A stretch of DNA of 64,000 nucleotides, taken from positions 79,914,430-79,978,429 of the forward strand of contig NC_077227.1 in NCBI RefSeq assembly GCF_027887165.1, read 5' to 3'. The notes beneath the pieces are model-generated. The model was not told where the DNA came from and ran no database searches. It worked only from the letters and a program-made list of their open reading frames with translations. The translations under genes and the position numbers were made by a program. Of the stretch, positions 20,017 to 57,245 are shown piece by piece. How positions within the stretch are numbered: position 1 is the stretch's first letter; every line of letters begins with the position of its first letter. This DNA is from Monodelphis domestica (taxonomy: Eukaryota > Chordata > Mammalia > Didelphimorphia > Didelphidae).

Positions 20017-20540
20017 CAAAGTTGGCTAAAGAGTTGCAGGGAGCTGAATTTTTCCCCTGAATCTCATGTGAAGTAAATGAAATTATCAGTACAGTCAAAA
20101 GATAATCCTTTTAAAGTAACCGTGCTTTAAGTTCCTGTTTGGAAAAGCCTCTACCTTCTTTCCCTTTCTTTCTCCCCTCCTGTGATCCCCTGCCCCCAAT
20201 CCACATGGAGGCTAATCATAGCCTAAGGGAAAATTACCCCCATTTTTAACAGCTGATAGAAATGAGTCCTGGTCCTGAGCCAGAATTTCTGGGCCAGGCG
20301 GTTCATCTGTGTCCAGATTGCAGGCAGCAGGGCAGGCGGGCTGGGGCTGGGCCTGGGGCGATGAGCGGTCTGCTCCAAGGCTAGAGTTTGCTGGGCAGGC
20401 AGGTAGTGACTAGGTGAGTGAGATCTGGGTTAAACAGGTCCGGATTGCAGGTAGGCAGAAGCAGGCAGAAGCCGAGCAAAGCCAGGCCGGCGGGAAGGGC
20501 TCAAGAAAATCCGAAGCAGATGACTGCAGGCCAGAGCTAA
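20017..20540. other. GC-rich stretch of LTR-element interior
   Basis: Markedly richer in GC than the rest of the LTR element's interior, especially 20,270-20,530. Short repeated motifs occur there (a gattgcaggcag-type unit near 20,316 and 20,444, and gcaggcagaagc). It could be the leader region of the minus-strand LTR element or separately acquired sequence. No coding frame of note. Confidence 0.3.
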
Positions 20541-20555
20541 TCAAGATGGTTTTCT

Positions 20556-20716
20556 TTTTCTTTTCTTTTTCTTTTCTTTTCTTTTCTTTTCTTTTCTTTT
20601 CTTTTCTTTTCTTTTCTTTTCTTTTCTTTTCTTTTCTTTTCTTTTCTTTTCTTTTCTTTTCTTTTCTTTTCTTTTCTTTTCTTTTCTTTTCTTTTCTTTT
20701 CTTTTCTTTTCTTTTC
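20556..20716 (-). repeat. (AAAAG)n tail of the retroposon
   Basis: On the plus strand (TTTTC)n, about 160 bp and nearly pure, with about 30 pentamer units. It directly adjoins the left target duplication and lies 16 nt past the minus-strand AATAAA. The position identifies it as an expanded poly(A) tail rather than an independent microsatellite. The long Lys-rich and Phe-rich open frames across it are artefacts. Confidence 0.95.
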
Positions 20717-20732
20717 CTATGCCACACAGAGG

Positions 20733-20738
20733 TTTATT
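20733..20738 (-). promoter_or_regulatory. Poly(A) signal of the retroposon's source RNA
   Basis: AATAAA on the minus strand (plus-strand tttatt), with 16 nt between it and the A-rich tail. This is the normal spacing between a poly(A) signal and the cleavage site. Confidence 0.8.
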
Positions 20739-21813
20739 GCTGGCCAGTTTCAGGGTGTGATAAGAGAAAGGAGGAGATGAACAGAACAACTGAGTCCTAT
20801 GCTACCCCAGGTGTCATGTAGATACCTGAATTCCCTGCTAGCTTCAAAGGCCCAAAGCCTCCACCTGATCCCTCAGGCCAGAGATTCCATTCCCTGGGGA
20901 GAGTGTGCTGCCATAAAGAAGGACCTTTTTGGGGAACAGGACAAGAGACAGAGTTTGGGGATTTCCTGGCTGTCATGTCCCACCACCTAGCTTGCTTGCC
21001 TGTTCTCTTTGTGGCAGCTGGGGTTTCTTCTGGAGCCTCTGTGGGCCTGCACCAGAGCTGCCAGGCTTTATGAGCTGTGCTGAGTCTTGGTTTCTAAAGA
21101 GAAAGGGCGAGGTGAGCACTTGCTCCCAGGGCCATTTCCAGGTCACCCAGCATGCATACATTTTGATCAGATCACAATCAGAGCATTGCCCTTGGAGACA
21201 ACCAGGCAGTCAGTCCCTGAAGTTTCCAGCCACGGGGGCCCCCAGCTACAGTCTGAGCCCACAGTTCTGTCTGTAAGTCTCCCCACAGCTCAGACTCCGA
21301 GTTTTGACTCTTTGAAGTAGTTAGAGCAGCCAACTTCATCTCAGATAGCCAGAGTAGAGCAGAAATGACAATTGGGGCTTACTTGTCCCCCCAAAATTCC
21401 TTTTCCAGGCCTCGACGTCCCCAACTTTCAGAGCTTGGGGGATCTGGGCTCATGTGTCTACACACTGTCAGGAAGATTAGTCCCGATCTTGAGATTAGAT
21501 GTCACAGTGTCGGATCAAGTGCGCATAAGGACAACCTCCAAAGGTTGTGGTGCAGAGGCTGCATTTGGGACCTCTTAAGGTCCCTTTCAGGAGATTTCCC
21601 TGGACTTATTTCTGGAGACCAGATCAGCTCCCACATGGTCTCCAGTGTTCAGTTCCCATTTAGCACTGCATTTTGGGAAAGGTGTCAAGCTAGCCCTTTA
21701 GAGTGCTCATAGATGACCATCTTAGGAAAAGCCAATGAAGGAGATCAACAGGCAAGAAGATAGGAGGAATGTGACAAGGAAATCACTTTAAAAGACTGAT
21801 ATATATTAATTTA

Positions 21814-21914
21814 AGGTCGCCAAGGAATTCAGCTATGTAATTCCTTAATGAAAACTCAAGTCAGCAGTCAACCTTTTATGGAGTTTAATTACAAACAGGA
21901 GGAAGAAAGGTATT

Positions 21915-21976
<62 letters not shown>

Positions 21977-22690
21977 GAATAGGGCTTAAATACCCCCTCT
22001 GTTTAGGCTGGGCCAAAAGGCCCAAGCCCTTAGATAGCTGAGGCAAAGAAAAGAGATCAGTCCCTATCACTCACGTGACCAAAATGGAGAAACAGTCTCA
22101 GGGGCCTCCACCTCCAGCTTCCTTCAGAGCAAGCTTTTCAGAGCACCACCTCTCAGAGCAAAACCTCTCCACCCCCTAGTCCTCAGACCCCGCTATCTTT
22201 AAGGAAACCATCCAGGTTCCCTCCCCTCAGTTCTCACATCTACCAATCACTGTCCATGTCTTCTCTGTGCCAATGGTGGCTCTAGCTTAACCCAGGACCA
22301 CCCAGAAGTCTGTGGCTTTGCACATGTCTGTTGAAGGTCATATTCTCAAATAATTAAATCTTGATCCTTTGCTACAGCCCTTCCTAAATCCTGTTACCCT
22401 GAGTAGGGTGGAGATTGGAAGTTCCAAGACCTGGTTCTGTCATTCCAAGTATCTCTATTGTATCAATTCTAAAATCAATCGTGACTCAAGAACTTCCTGT
22501 TCTATGCTTAAGCATAGGTCAAAGCCTTTCCATTGTTCAGCAAAAGGTTTCTGTCCTAAAGTAATCTTAAGTAAGGAGCAGAAGGACCCTCCCATGCCAA
22601 GGGGGGGTTCACATTCCTATAGACTATCAGTAGGAAATTTTTCAAGTATGAAATTTCCCAATGGTGAAATTTCCAACATTTATAAGTCTA
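21814..22690 (-). mobile_element. LTR-like block inside the retroposon
   Basis: Begins ggtcgccaaggaatt and continues with a block (ttttatggagtttaattaca, then a gaggaagaaag stretch, a (GA)n run at about 21,916-21,973, ttaaatacccc). This parallels the solo LTR at 56,671 (ggtcgccatgg, tggtggtttatttacaacag) and, more loosely, the one at 54,664. Same family and same orientation are likely. Whether it was part of the original transcript or inserted later cannot be settled by eye. The right limit is approximate. Confidence 0.5.
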
Positions 22691-22849
22691 AGAAATTTTA
22701 AGGTTTACAGAAGGCATGATTTTTCTTCAAGACATGAGGCAGACGCTCTTTGTGGTGAGAGAAACCTCCTTCCTTGCTGCATCACCCTAAAGATGGAGAC
22801 ACAGGTTTAGTCCCCCCATTGGGAGTAGAGTCTATATCTCTTCAAAGTG

Positions 22850-23830
22850 GGGGGGGGCCTGCCAAAAGGCCACAGCTGAGAATGCCCCAAAGGCAATGCA
22901 GGCCTGTGTAGTAATTACTCCAGCAAAGGATGCTCCTAAGACAGTCTCAGGTGGCAGTAATGCAGGTGCAGCTAGTGATCCCCAGAAGGTGGCTCCAGAT
23001 ACAGGCACAGGCAATCAATTCCCAAAAGGCAACAGACATACAACTTGTATCTTTACATAATGGGAGGTTCCTCCCAAACCAAGCCTGAGGTAGAAGTGGT
23101 AATTTCAAAAGAAGAACTGGAGGCCCAGGTGGTGATTCCAGAAGGTCACAGAGGCACGGTCGGGCTACAGTTTCCAAAAGAAGCTGGAAGCATGGCGATC
23201 GATTCCACAAAGAAAAGATGGACTCGTGGAGAGGTGACTCTTATAACAAATGGCAATCCCTCGAAGGAGACCAGGGCATAAGTAAAAGATAGAGGCCCAA
23301 ATAGAAATTCCCCAAATGAAAGCTGGCTCCAGGTGAAGGCAGACCATCATTCCAAATGATACAAGCACAGGCTGTAGCTTCCCAAGGAAGATCCAGGCCA
23401 TAAACTTCCCTGGCCTCAAAGGCAACAGAGACCCCAAGTGTAGCTTCCCTCCCCCCAAGGACCAACACAGAGGCTGTGGCTCCCTCTAAAGAGATGGAAG
23501 GCCCAGGTAATAATTCCCAGAAGGCAATGCAGGCACAAGTGGTGATTCCCAAAAGGTAAATCCAGGTGCTAGAAGCACAGGCTGTAGCTTCCCAGATGTG
23601 ATTCCAGAGGAAGATCTAGGCCATAAACCTCCCTGGCCCAAAGACAACAGATGCCCCAAGTGCAGGCCATTCCCCCCAGACTCCCAGGACCAACACAGGC
23701 TGTAGAGCAGGGAGTAATCCCCCCCCCCCAAAGGTAGCAACACAAGATGCAGGTACAAGTGGTTAATTCCTGGGAGACAGAACTGTATGGAGAGTGATTG
23801 CCCAAATACAAGAAGGAGGCATAATAAGGT
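22850..23830 (-). repeat. Degenerate VNTR of the retroposon
   Basis: Repeated, diverged short units of roughly 40-50 bp built around aaggcaatgcaggc (22,890; 23,521) and ggtggtgattcc-like segments (23,112; 23,540). There is also a larger duplication: gcacaggctgtagcttccca at 23,365 and 23,575, each followed by ggccataaac and an accaacacag segment, giving a period of about 210-225 bp. Short open frames with repeating Trp-Glu/Gly-Lys-Leu-Gln motifs on the minus strand reflect the repeat, not a protein. Confidence 0.75.
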
Positions 23831-24029
23831 CTAGGCACGAGTGTGCACTTCCCCAGATGGGGTGATGGGTGGCGGTGGAAAGTCTTCAATTTGGGGGTGG
23901 TGGTGCTGGCAGTGGGGGTGGAGGATGAAAACTATGTCTTCAAATGGAAAGGTGGAGGTACCGGTGCTCATTTCCCAGGTGCAGTGAAGGCCCAAATGGA
24001 AGCTGGCTCCATGGAACTCGTGTAGCCAT

Positions 24030-24665
24030 CAGTGTGGGAACAAAGTGGGGGGAGGGGGAGGACAGTGGCTGCCTGCCATCTTGCTCTTCCTTTGTGGCCA
24101 CAGCCCGCCATTCTGGTTTTCCATCTGATTCCACAGCTGGGCCCATGTGGCACTACTTTTGCTGGTCAGCAATCCCCCAGGCCACCATGTGGCTCCTGCT
24201 GCTAGCCCTGAGCGTCTCAATTTCTCTTCTGTGGATGAGGTATCCCTGTGGGTCCTTCAGGGGCAAAGCAGGCTGGCCTGCCTACTGCGTGTCCGGCCCA
24301 CTGGCTTTATTCTGATTCTTCTGCGAGGTCTTCGTGCCCAGTGCTTGGTCACCGGGAAGGCCCACCTGTGACGGACCCTTCCGGACCCTTCAGCAGTGGT
24401 GTGACGGTGGCGGCGGCAGCAGACCCCCGCTGTCACTCAAATGGACAGGTAGATGGCGGGATGACCACCTCTGCTGCGGGCAACAGTAGGCTGTGATTCT
24501 GGCAGCGGATCTTTGGGTTGCCAGCAGCCACCGACCTTGGCTCTCCCAGAGTCACCCGCATCGCCTGGGATGAACAGAAGGCTGGGGGGGGCAGGTGGCT
24601 TAGGCCCCGCTGGGTGGCAGAGAGCCACCAAGCAACCAGCTTCACTGCCTGCTTGCCGCCTACTG
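24030..24665 (-). other. GC-rich 5' part of the retroposon
   Basis: CpG-containing sequence about 640 bp long, forming the minus-strand 5' end of the retroposon. It includes gtggcggcggcagcag and several CpG clusters, in contrast to the AT-rich elements around it. Such a segment could act as the source element's promoter (inference). Open frames of 60-120 codons occur on both strands, but none is recognisable. Confidence 0.5.
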
Positions 24666-24817
24666 TCAAGATGGTTTTCTAAAAAAGCATCTTGGAGAAA
24701 CGTGGCTTAAAAACCAAACAAACTAGGCACTAGCTATTAAAGGCTGAACTTAGTTACAGTAGACAAAAGATCAGAAGATTGAGGGTATTTCATTTTTCCA
24801 AAGTGGTTAGCCAAAAC

Positions 24818-48150: not shown

Positions 48151-48560
48151 CCCACAGTACTGCCTCTGCCTACACAAGGCTTCCGTTCTATCGGGAAGGC
48201 AATTCTTTCCCATCAAAGTAAATATAAAACACATACATACAGACACACACACACCCCTCCCCAAACCCTAGATTAAACGCGTCACTTAGTCTTTGGACCT
48301 TAAGTGAGGTACTGGGAAGCCAAAGCTCAGAATGAACCTTTCTCGGCCCTCACAGGGCTTACGTTCTATCGGGGAAAACACCCCCTGCCCACGGCAGTAA
48401 ATAGAAAATGCGTGCCCAAGGATAACTAGTTCTCCGCTACGAAGTCAAGTACTAACTGGGTGCGGGGGTGCCAAGCCCCAGAATGAAACCGCCCCTGCCT
48501 TCACGGGGCTTCCATTCTTTTGGGAAACCCCAGGCTGGCAAGGGAAGTACGACATGCACA
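48150..48560. repeat. Three related tandem copies next to the CpG island
   Basis: Similar segments recur in line: caaggcttccgttctatcgg near 48,175, cagggcttacgttctatcgg near 48,353, and cggggcttccattcttttgg near 48,504. Spacing is about 178 and 151 bp. Each copy is followed by an A-rich stretch and the later ones are preceded by a ccaaagc/ccaagcc...cagaatgaa block. The unit resembles a SINE 3'-region fragment also seen, more weakly, at 41,330-41,410. Confidence 0.6.
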
Positions 48561-49320
48561 CTTTTTCTTGCACTCTCAGCCTGCTATCTGGGAGAGTCGG
48601 AGAGCCATACAGAAAGATGGACCAGGCGAGTGGGTGCGGGGTGGTGGCTGGGCGAGGCTTGGAGCCGGGAGCCGGAGTGGGACAAAGGGCCCGCCCGCCA
48701 GGGCCTCCTCTCCCACGCCGGTGGCTCCCTCACCCTCCTCGTCTCCTTCCTTCCGTCACTCACCCAAAATCCCTGTGCTCACTGCTCGGGCCAGGGCCCG
48801 ACTCATCGTGCACGGGGGCCTCCGGTCCTCCAGGCTCGGCTTCAGCCCCGGGACTAGCAGCTCTCGCCGCTCATTGTTAAAGGGCCGGGGGAAGCGGTAG
48901 TGTGTACAAAGCCAGCGCTGCGGCACATGCTGTACGCGCCTCCGCCAATCCTGTGTCGCCTTACAGCGGAGTCGCCCTGGCACGTCCAATCAAGAACTGC
49001 AGCCTGGAGATCCAAGTACTCTACTTCAAGCGTCTATTTGGTAACTCTGAGGGCGCTTTAAGGACCAGGCATGCTCAGTTGGACTACACGAGCTGGGCTG
49101 GGGCGGGGCACTCCTCAGCGGCGGTGACGGGGACGGTGACGGTAGTAGTGGTGGCTGCTCCTACTGCTACCGCGCCGCCCCCGACACCCCGGCTGACTTT
49201 TTGACTAGGTCCTGGAGCGGAGGGTGGGGTAGGGCGGGGCATAAGGAGGTGGGTAAGTTTAACTCTTGCCGAACCGCAGGCGACGCGGACGAATTGTTTG
49301 GCTCTACCTAAAACCCAGCT
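48500..49320. promoter_or_regulatory. CpG island and CCNJ promoter region
   Basis: The only sizeable CpG-dense block in the window, GC-rich with frequent CG (for example around 48,640-48,900 and 49,080-49,310). It contains two CCAAT boxes (48,938 and 48,986 on the plus strand, so inverted with respect to CCNJ) and GC-rich Sp1-like boxes (gggcggggc near 49,230). There is no TATA box near the likely start. The island extends well to the right of CCNJ's first exon, so a divergent transcript is possible. Open frames across it in several frames are the usual consequence of GC content. Confidence 0.75.
48764..48935 (-). other. CCNJ: Probable CCNJ 5' UTR exon
   Basis: A good minus-strand donor (ATTTTGG|GTGAGT) lies at 48,764-48,758 inside the CpG island. 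It is the best candidate for the end of a non-coding first exon that splices to the ATG exon near 47.5 kb. The 5' end shown is a guess, placed just below the first CCAAT box. An unrelated open frame on this strand (77 codons) overlaps it but does not join the cyclin frame. Confidence 0.4.
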
Positions 49321-49539
49321 GGCAGGGATTTTCTGCTTTCTTACCATTTCACACTTTTGAGATCTTTTGGCCAACGCTAGGAATGATACATGTGTTTGCA
49401 TAAGAGGATATCAGTCGTGATTACACATGTATGCATTTCATACATTTGTACACACATAAAAATATATAAAATGAGTGATGTTAAATACTTGGGACACATC
49501 CAAATGAATGTTGTTCCCTTCTAAGTAAGACGCCTCAGG

Positions 49540-55560: not shown

Positions 55561-56670
55561 GATAAACATATACATAAAATAAAAACAAGGCATTTAATGA
55601 GAGGATACTAACCACTGCTGGGATCAGGAAAGGCTTTGAAAAGGAGTTTGCCACTTTTGCTAGAGAGAGAGATTTCTCGGCAGTTTTTACATTCTTGAAG
55701 GCATATATACATTTGCTAACAGTGAATGAATAAACAGCTGTGAGAGCATATAAACTCTTACCTTGTATTTCATTCTCTATTTCCCTACTCTTCTTCACTC
55801 CCACAACTTCAGATTTGAGAAAAAAGGAGTTGCTGAAATTATTGTATTTTTTGATAATAGCAAGAGAAATGGGTAGCCTTAGTGTTACATTAGTGTAAAA
55901 GAACCAGAGGAGGGTCTATATTATATACGGGTTAGATTATGATTTACAAAAAGACACAGATATCAAGGGGGAGAGTGAATTAGAAATATAATTAGCAATT
56001 CTGATGCATTATCAGTCTTCCTTTACCCCCAATTAGTTTGTATTTACAAATATTTTATATTGATTTGTGTTCATTCTGTTCTTTCCCCTCCTAGAATATG
56101 TTTGTATCCTTAGCACCTAAAACAATACCTTACAAATAGTAGGTGCTTAAAATTTGTTGAACGAATGAATGCATAAATATCTTTCATAATGAAACAGGAT
56201 CCAAACTGTTGTGGGTTATAACTTTAAAAAAAAAAAAAAACCTTGACTTGCCATCTTAAGGACCATCATTTACTCTTCTCCTTTCGGAGAGCCCAACTCC
56301 TATCAAAAGCTACTAGGTTCATTACTACCAATTTCATACCTCTCACCAGGGTTTGTTGGTAAGTGGTTTTCCAGAAAAAAATGCACATGACCTTCCTAGA
56401 AGTTTAATCTGCCTTATTGACATATGCTCCATCAGATTCTTAAAATTAATAAATCAACAAAATAAACTGTAATTTTTCAGCATTGGTTAATTTCCAAGGT
56501 ATACAAATACTGAAAATTTAACAGCTTTCTGGAAGAGCTAGTGTCAGGTGGCTCCAGTACCCTTCAGTTTAGTTTCTAACCCTACCTGTCACCTGAAGCT
56601 TTTCTCTTCAAGATTACCAACAGTGTCCTTTAGGGGTAAAATTTAGGGTTGAACTGAATATATTTTTAGT
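55561..56670. other. Intergenic between two LTR fossils
   Basis: AT-rich, no gene recognised. A short SINE tail-like piece lies at 56,110-56,175 (aacaataccttacaaatagt, aggtgcttaaaatttgttga), and an A-run at 56,226-56,240. Confidence 0.4.
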
Positions 56671-57245
56671 TGGTCGCCATGGATTGGAATTCTAAATCCC
56701 AATGAAATACTCAACTCATAATGGAATTTTATGGTGGTTTATTTACAACAGAAGGAAGAAATTAAGAAATGAGAGGAAAAGGGAAGAGCTGCTCCAGCAT
56801 AGTCTGAACTAGGCAGGAGTTCAGAGGCCTCAGCCAAGGCATCTCTCCAGAAGTTGGTGCCTCCAGAAAAGCCAAGGAAAAGAGAAGTCAGCCTTATAAC
56901 TCACCATGTGATCATCTAAGGGAAGCAGTCTGAGGTTTCACACTCGAGCTCCTCCATGATCGACTTCCATGGCCAAGTCCCTCTCATAGGAAGTGACGTG
57001 AAATATAAAGGCAGTCTTTATGCCACTTCCTGTGTCTTACATGAACCAATGGTGGCTTAAACTTGGCTTTGGATGGCCCAGTGGGTCAGTCAGTTGTTTC
57101 TGATTTGCCACTTGCTAGCACATGTGAGTCATAGACCTTCCTCCCCTACACTTAATCCTTAAGTGGGGGTATCTACATTCCTGGTTGTTAAAATTCTAAA
57201 GACTAAGCAGGGTGGAGTAAATCTAAAATTCCCATGCCTCAACTA
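56671..57245 (-). mobile_element. LTR fossil, family A
   Basis: Left edge ttggtcgccatggattgg, then ttatggtggtttatttacaa, with an AATAAA on the minus strand near 56,738. Further in, tgaaccaatggtggcttaaa matches the gccaatggtggctctagctt block of the copy at 21,814. It ends near tctaaaattcccatgcctca. Solo, minus strand. Confidence 0.6.

Follow-up and report, generated by a model that had tools for sequence, protein, structure and literature searches.

The window, that is, the whole 64-kb stretch of opossum DNA analysed here (G000:C1:79914430-79978429, with position 1 at C1:79914430), lies on an autosomal contig, C1. It carries a 4.1-kb insert on the minus strand (20541-24680), and the parts of the insert are given in Table 1.

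Table 1. Parts of the insert, by window position
Feature	Position	Strand	Basis
3' copy of the 15-bp target duplication (TSD)	20541..20555	-	repeat match and all-starts control
(AAAAG)n 3' tail, ~32 units, presumed to descend from a poly(A) tail	20556..20716	-	TRF, sequence
AATAAA poly(A) signal, also present in the parent	20733..20738	-	sequence
Exon 4 of the parent RNA, portion after the LTR	20720..21769	-	95% to C9:777749-778801
Solo LTR, TGT...ACA, 940 bp, nested in exon 4, carrying an (AG)n run	21770..22709	-	LTR-family matches; parent without LTR
Exon 4 of the parent RNA, portion before the LTR	22710..22745	-	parent alignment
Exon 3 copy, 1416 bp (parent 6097 bp), degenerate 32-bp repeats and one higher-order unit	22746..24161	-	parent alignment
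Exon 2 copy	24162..24311	-	parent alignment
Exon 1 copy, GC-rich	24312..24665	-	parent alignment
5' copy of the TSD, at the TTTTTT/AGAAAA nick site	24666..24680	-	repeat match

The insert is bounded by a perfect 15-bp direct repeat, TCAAGATGGTTTTCT. To control for chance, every start in the window was compared at the spacing of the insert (59845 starts, 16 of which are the insert itself). A 15-bp match occurred at 0 of the 59829 other starts, and at least 12 bp were shared by 45 of them. An earlier control on a random sample had given 15-bp matches at 2 of 3000 starts, the positions of both being unrecorded. The nick sites of LINE-1 (L1) follow a TT/AAAA-like consensus, and the minus-strand 5' flank of the insert, TTTTTT/AGAAAACC, is a site of this type. 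At the opposite end, the poly(A) signal lies 16-17 nt ahead of a nearly pure tail of 161 nt, as measured by TRF. The GC content of the insert start, the copy of exon 1, is 0.634. The flanking repeat, the L1-type target, the minus-strand signal with its tail and the GC-rich start had all been described in the first-pass annotation, and all are present.

Just past the TSD on the 3' side of the insert, positions 20300-20540 are GC-rich and contain short GGGCTG and AGGCAGAAGC repeats. Elsewhere, 48601-49400 is the sole CpG-island-like stretch of the window by the criteria used, and a 159-codon open frame at 48401-48880 had no Pfam match.

A spliced parent locus on the X

The blocks of the insert match C9:768938-778801 of the same assembly (3.586 Gb, 13 contigs) in order and on a single strand. 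This locus is made up of four exons and three GT-AG introns, and the copy lacks all three introns. The junctions are GGTCAG/GTAGGG..CTGCAG/AACAAAG for intron 1, GACCAG/GTAAGC..TTACAG/AAAAAG for intron 2 and AAAGAG/GTACTG..TTGCAG/TGTCTG for intron 3. The parent exons measure 362, 141, 6097 and 1086 bp, giving a spliced RNA of 7686 nt; those of the copy measure 355, 150, 1416 and 1083 bp, the last figure being net of the LTR and of a 3-bp overlap. The A-rich tail is missing in the parent, where no run of at least eight A was found within 300 nt past the poly(A) site. The first-pass annotation had proposed L1-mediated copying of an RNA and a search for a source locus with the same parts; the spliced parent is such a locus, and the lost introns, the tail and the TSD at an L1-type site support the copying.

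Five aligned blocks, from which the middle of exon 3 was excluded, show 152 differences between copy and parent over 2569 bases. In the same five blocks, a parent CpG corresponds to TpG or CpA in the copy 24 times and the reverse occurs 9 times, as would be expected once a copy has been moved out of a CpG island. Small gaps run in both directions, and the copy has one 9-bp piece in exon 1 and one in exon 2 that are missing in the parent. The island lies at C9:769000-769800 and the start of parent exon 1 sits on its edge. The 5' end of this exon was set solely by the start of the copy; its position at the island edge fits a transcription start and is no proof of one. That the parent is transcribed, and where its RNA begins, we infer from the retrocopy, and the copied RNA was probably close to full length.

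The parent lies in gene-dense surroundings near one end of the X. Pfam supports three neighbouring genes: one with a TBC domain (708.8 kb), one of chromo/pre-SET type (756.5 kb) and one with an ANF-receptor domain (790.6 kb). By their peptides we take these to be TBC1D25, SUV39H1 and a metabotropic glutamate receptor, with a presumed WDR13 at ~760.7-762.3 kb, whose peptide gave no Pfam match.

In the spliced parent, the longest open frame has 237 codons and lies inside the repeats. The sense strand holds 17 frames of at least 100 codons, and Pfam matched none of the five that were scanned; the antisense strand has no frame of at least 150 codons. A protein-coding parent was rejected on the longest frame and the Pfam result, and for the same reasons the parent RNA is called noncoding, which, judged by its frames, it appears to be.

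RSX is the lncRNA of marsupial X inactivation (PMC12221971, PMC11112854). It resembles the parent in being X-linked, noncoding (the parent apparently so) and rich in tandem repeats. An opossum RSX qPCR primer from PMC12221971 has a single exact match, at C9:48858219, and for this reason C9 (89.4 Mb) was taken as the X. The match lies 48 Mb from the parent, and neither of two RSX primers occurs in the 20-kb sequence of the parent locus. The identity of the parent with RSX was rejected on these primer results. Titles and opening lines of abstracts returned by the literature searches contained no mention of the parent gene.

The nested LTR and the comparison with SVA-type elements

The first-pass annotation read the element as a marsupial composite retroposon of the SVA/LAVA type, and the reason for the resemblance is the solo LTR nested in it. 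Searching the assembly with the whole insert gave 2720 candidates at first look, and 40 of them were scored. Besides the window and the parent, these comprised 38 sites where the LTR block alone (query 1945-2904) was matched, at 89-98% identity; 26 of the 38 start at query base 1957. Judged by these matches, the LTR is that of an abundant endogenous-retrovirus family. Six other copies were read. Four of them lie between matching flanks of 4 bp (GGTT, ACCC, GAAG and CAGG), and two are preceded by a shared purine-rich tract, AGGGGGGAT, as a provirus would have before its 3' LTR. Apart from simple repeats and the insert itself, the only other match within the window is a 73% relative of the LTR block at 56653-56761.

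Parent exon 4 is uninterrupted at the point of LTR insertion and holds no LTR remnant. The flanks of the LTR in the window read GCCTTC[LTR]TTCCTCC, compared with GCCTTCCTCC in the parent; the duplication would be CTTC with one C lost, an imperfect match at three of four bases. Since the LTR is absent from the matching parent exon, it most likely joined the copy after retroposition and was never part of the copied RNA. The LTR-family block proposed earlier is real; its supposed role as a component of that RNA is not supported.

A different history would have the RNA copied once from an allele that already carried the LTR; the present X locus would then either have shed the LTR since or be only a paralogue of the locus that served as template. 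The 152 differences leave room for a template not identical to the reference parent, and the imperfect duplication around the LTR also speaks for such a history. Against it stand the intact parent exon 4, without remnant, and the assembly, where no second paralogue was found. We regard this history as very improbable.

If the insert were one member of a family, dispersed copies with shared ends would be expected, as the first-pass annotation had proposed. With the LTR excluded, the 5' 1955 bases gave three candidates in the insert's own assembly; all were scored, and they fell only in the window and at the C9 parent. The 3' 1053 bases gave two candidates, both scored, which were again the window and the parent. 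The 3' search is the stricter test because 5'-truncated relatives would share the 3' end. With the parent array as query, both of two candidates were the parent and the window copy. No dispersed copies beyond these two were found in this assembly; very common words are passed over by the search, which makes these negatives strong and not absolute. The searches show a single copy and one multi-exon source gene, the very outcome that had been named beforehand as refuting the composite reading in favour of an ordinary retrocopy.

The insert shares with the SVA, LAVA, PVA and FVA elements of hominoid primates (PMC4432496) an L1-type insertion, a tandem-repeat middle and, in the case of SVA, a retroviral piece towards the 3' end. 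The same paper defines SVA by a 5' CT-hexamer/Alu-like region. Unlike those elements, the insert has no family that was found and no detected region of this kind: the copy begins with parent exon 1, TRF listed no hexamer array in the insert, and Rfam gave no match at gathering score in the whole 64-kb window. Its LTR is most likely a later arrival and its repeats are those of parent exon 3. The retroviral piece was most likely no part of the mobilised RNA: parent exon 4 is without it, and the LTR family has its own insertion signature. No marsupial SVA-like family is mentioned in titles or opening lines of abstracts returned by the literature searches.

A L1-mobilised marsupial family with a GC-rich 5' part, a central VNTR and an LTR-derived 3' part would predict the order of parts and the L1 hallmarks seen in this one copy. 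It is contradicted by the lack, in this assembly, of a second dispersed copy of the 5' part, the 3' part or the parent array, by the origin of the parts as spliced exons of one gene, and by the separate, later LTR. We consider such a family extremely improbable. The composite-retroposon reading is therefore given up, since the 5' and 3' parts match only the window and the parent and the LTR is separate. Of the fallback offered with it, a long noncoding RNA ending in LTR-derived sequence and copied once, the single copying from a spliced parent holds, and the LTR ending most likely does not, the parent being without one.

We are nearly certain that the insert arose as one processed retrocopy of an X-derived RNA that was spliced, polyadenylated and apparently noncoding, and that it later received the nested solo LTR. 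In such a course of events, LINE-1 proteins would have acted in trans on an RNA present in the germline and, through target-primed reverse transcription, placed a copy of it on C1. In this copy the poly(A) tail would then have turned into the (AAAAG)n microsatellite, and CpGs would have been lost. Later, a retrovirus would have entered exon 4 of the copy and been reduced by recombination to a solo LTR. Over the same period, the exon-3 array of the parent would have grown from ~1 to ~13 higher-order units, with the copy retaining the earlier array. The event looks like ordinary LINE-1 retroposition. Like other processed retrocopies made by LINE-1 in trans, the insert has spliced exons, a poly(A) signal and tail, a TSD, an L1-type nick, a single copy and a multi-exon parent. 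Unlike typical ones, it derives from an array-bearing RNA that is apparently noncoding, instead of from an mRNA, and it contains a nested solo LTR.

The exon-3 repeat array

Exon 3 of the parent is a nested array, with 32-bp units arranged in higher-order repeats, mostly of 287-332 bp (about 290-330 bp). There are 13 higher-order anchors in the parent vs one in the copy. The copy is collinear with parent exon 3 except for two large gaps of ~3.2 and ~1.4 kb, together ~4.65 kb. Additional introns were rejected as the cause of these gaps, because a junction scan with the best ungapped placement per copy position gave no GT..AG pair at their edges. TRF did not list the array part of the copy, and elsewhere in the insert it listed two short repeats (10 and 15 bp) and the (AG)n run. 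Gap-free repeat families of two to five copies lie at ~22873-23770, so that the degenerate VNTR noted earlier in the middle of the element is real and indeed degenerate.

A further array, of 33 bp in 19 copies, lies in parent intron 3 (C9:776859-777486) and is ~70-74% like the exon-3 repeats. The same kind of repeat thus stands on both sides of a parent splice site, and the intron-3 array is missing from the copy.

Twelve of the 13 parent anchors were compared. The first 11 units have a mean identity of 98.8% over 118 bp, and the copy unit is 90.7-91.5% identical to these 11 and 94.9% to the twelfth. Since the 11 units are closer to each other than to the copy, the array probably grew after retroposition. 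This is the simplest reading of the unit comparison; a homogenised old array or a loss in the copy would also fit.

The shorter exon 3 could instead have arisen in the copy, through a deletion or through a template jump while the RNA was being reverse-transcribed. This explanation concerns the array alone and is compatible with the retrocopy. The gap ends lie inside similar repeat units, which favours recombination or slippage, and continual homogenisation would give the same picture of the parent units. The closeness of the 11 extra parent units to one another, greater than that of copy to parent, fits later expansion instead. We hold shortening in the copy to be the unlikely course, with a substantial chance left to it. 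If it did occur, the claim of an older state would be undone and that of copying would stand. With expansion of the parent as the preferred reading, the copy may show the parent's array as it was earlier, when it was shorter.

With these results, one candidate SVA-like family that would have arisen independently outside the primates drops out, and a solo LTR nested in a repeat-bearing retrocopy can mimic an SVA-like element. The mildly new part is the parent gene, which lies on the X, contains a repeat array and is apparently noncoding. We tentatively suggest, at somewhat less than even confidence, that it makes an X-linked lncRNA, apparently not described before, whose higher-order tandem-repeat exon is reminiscent of RSX/XIST repeat domains, that its array has expanded ~10x in the recent opossum lineage, and that the autosomal retrocopy preserves its earlier form as a fossil. 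The insert thus points to an X-linked, array-bearing, apparently noncoding opossum gene, and the copy offers an internal reference point for repeat expansion.
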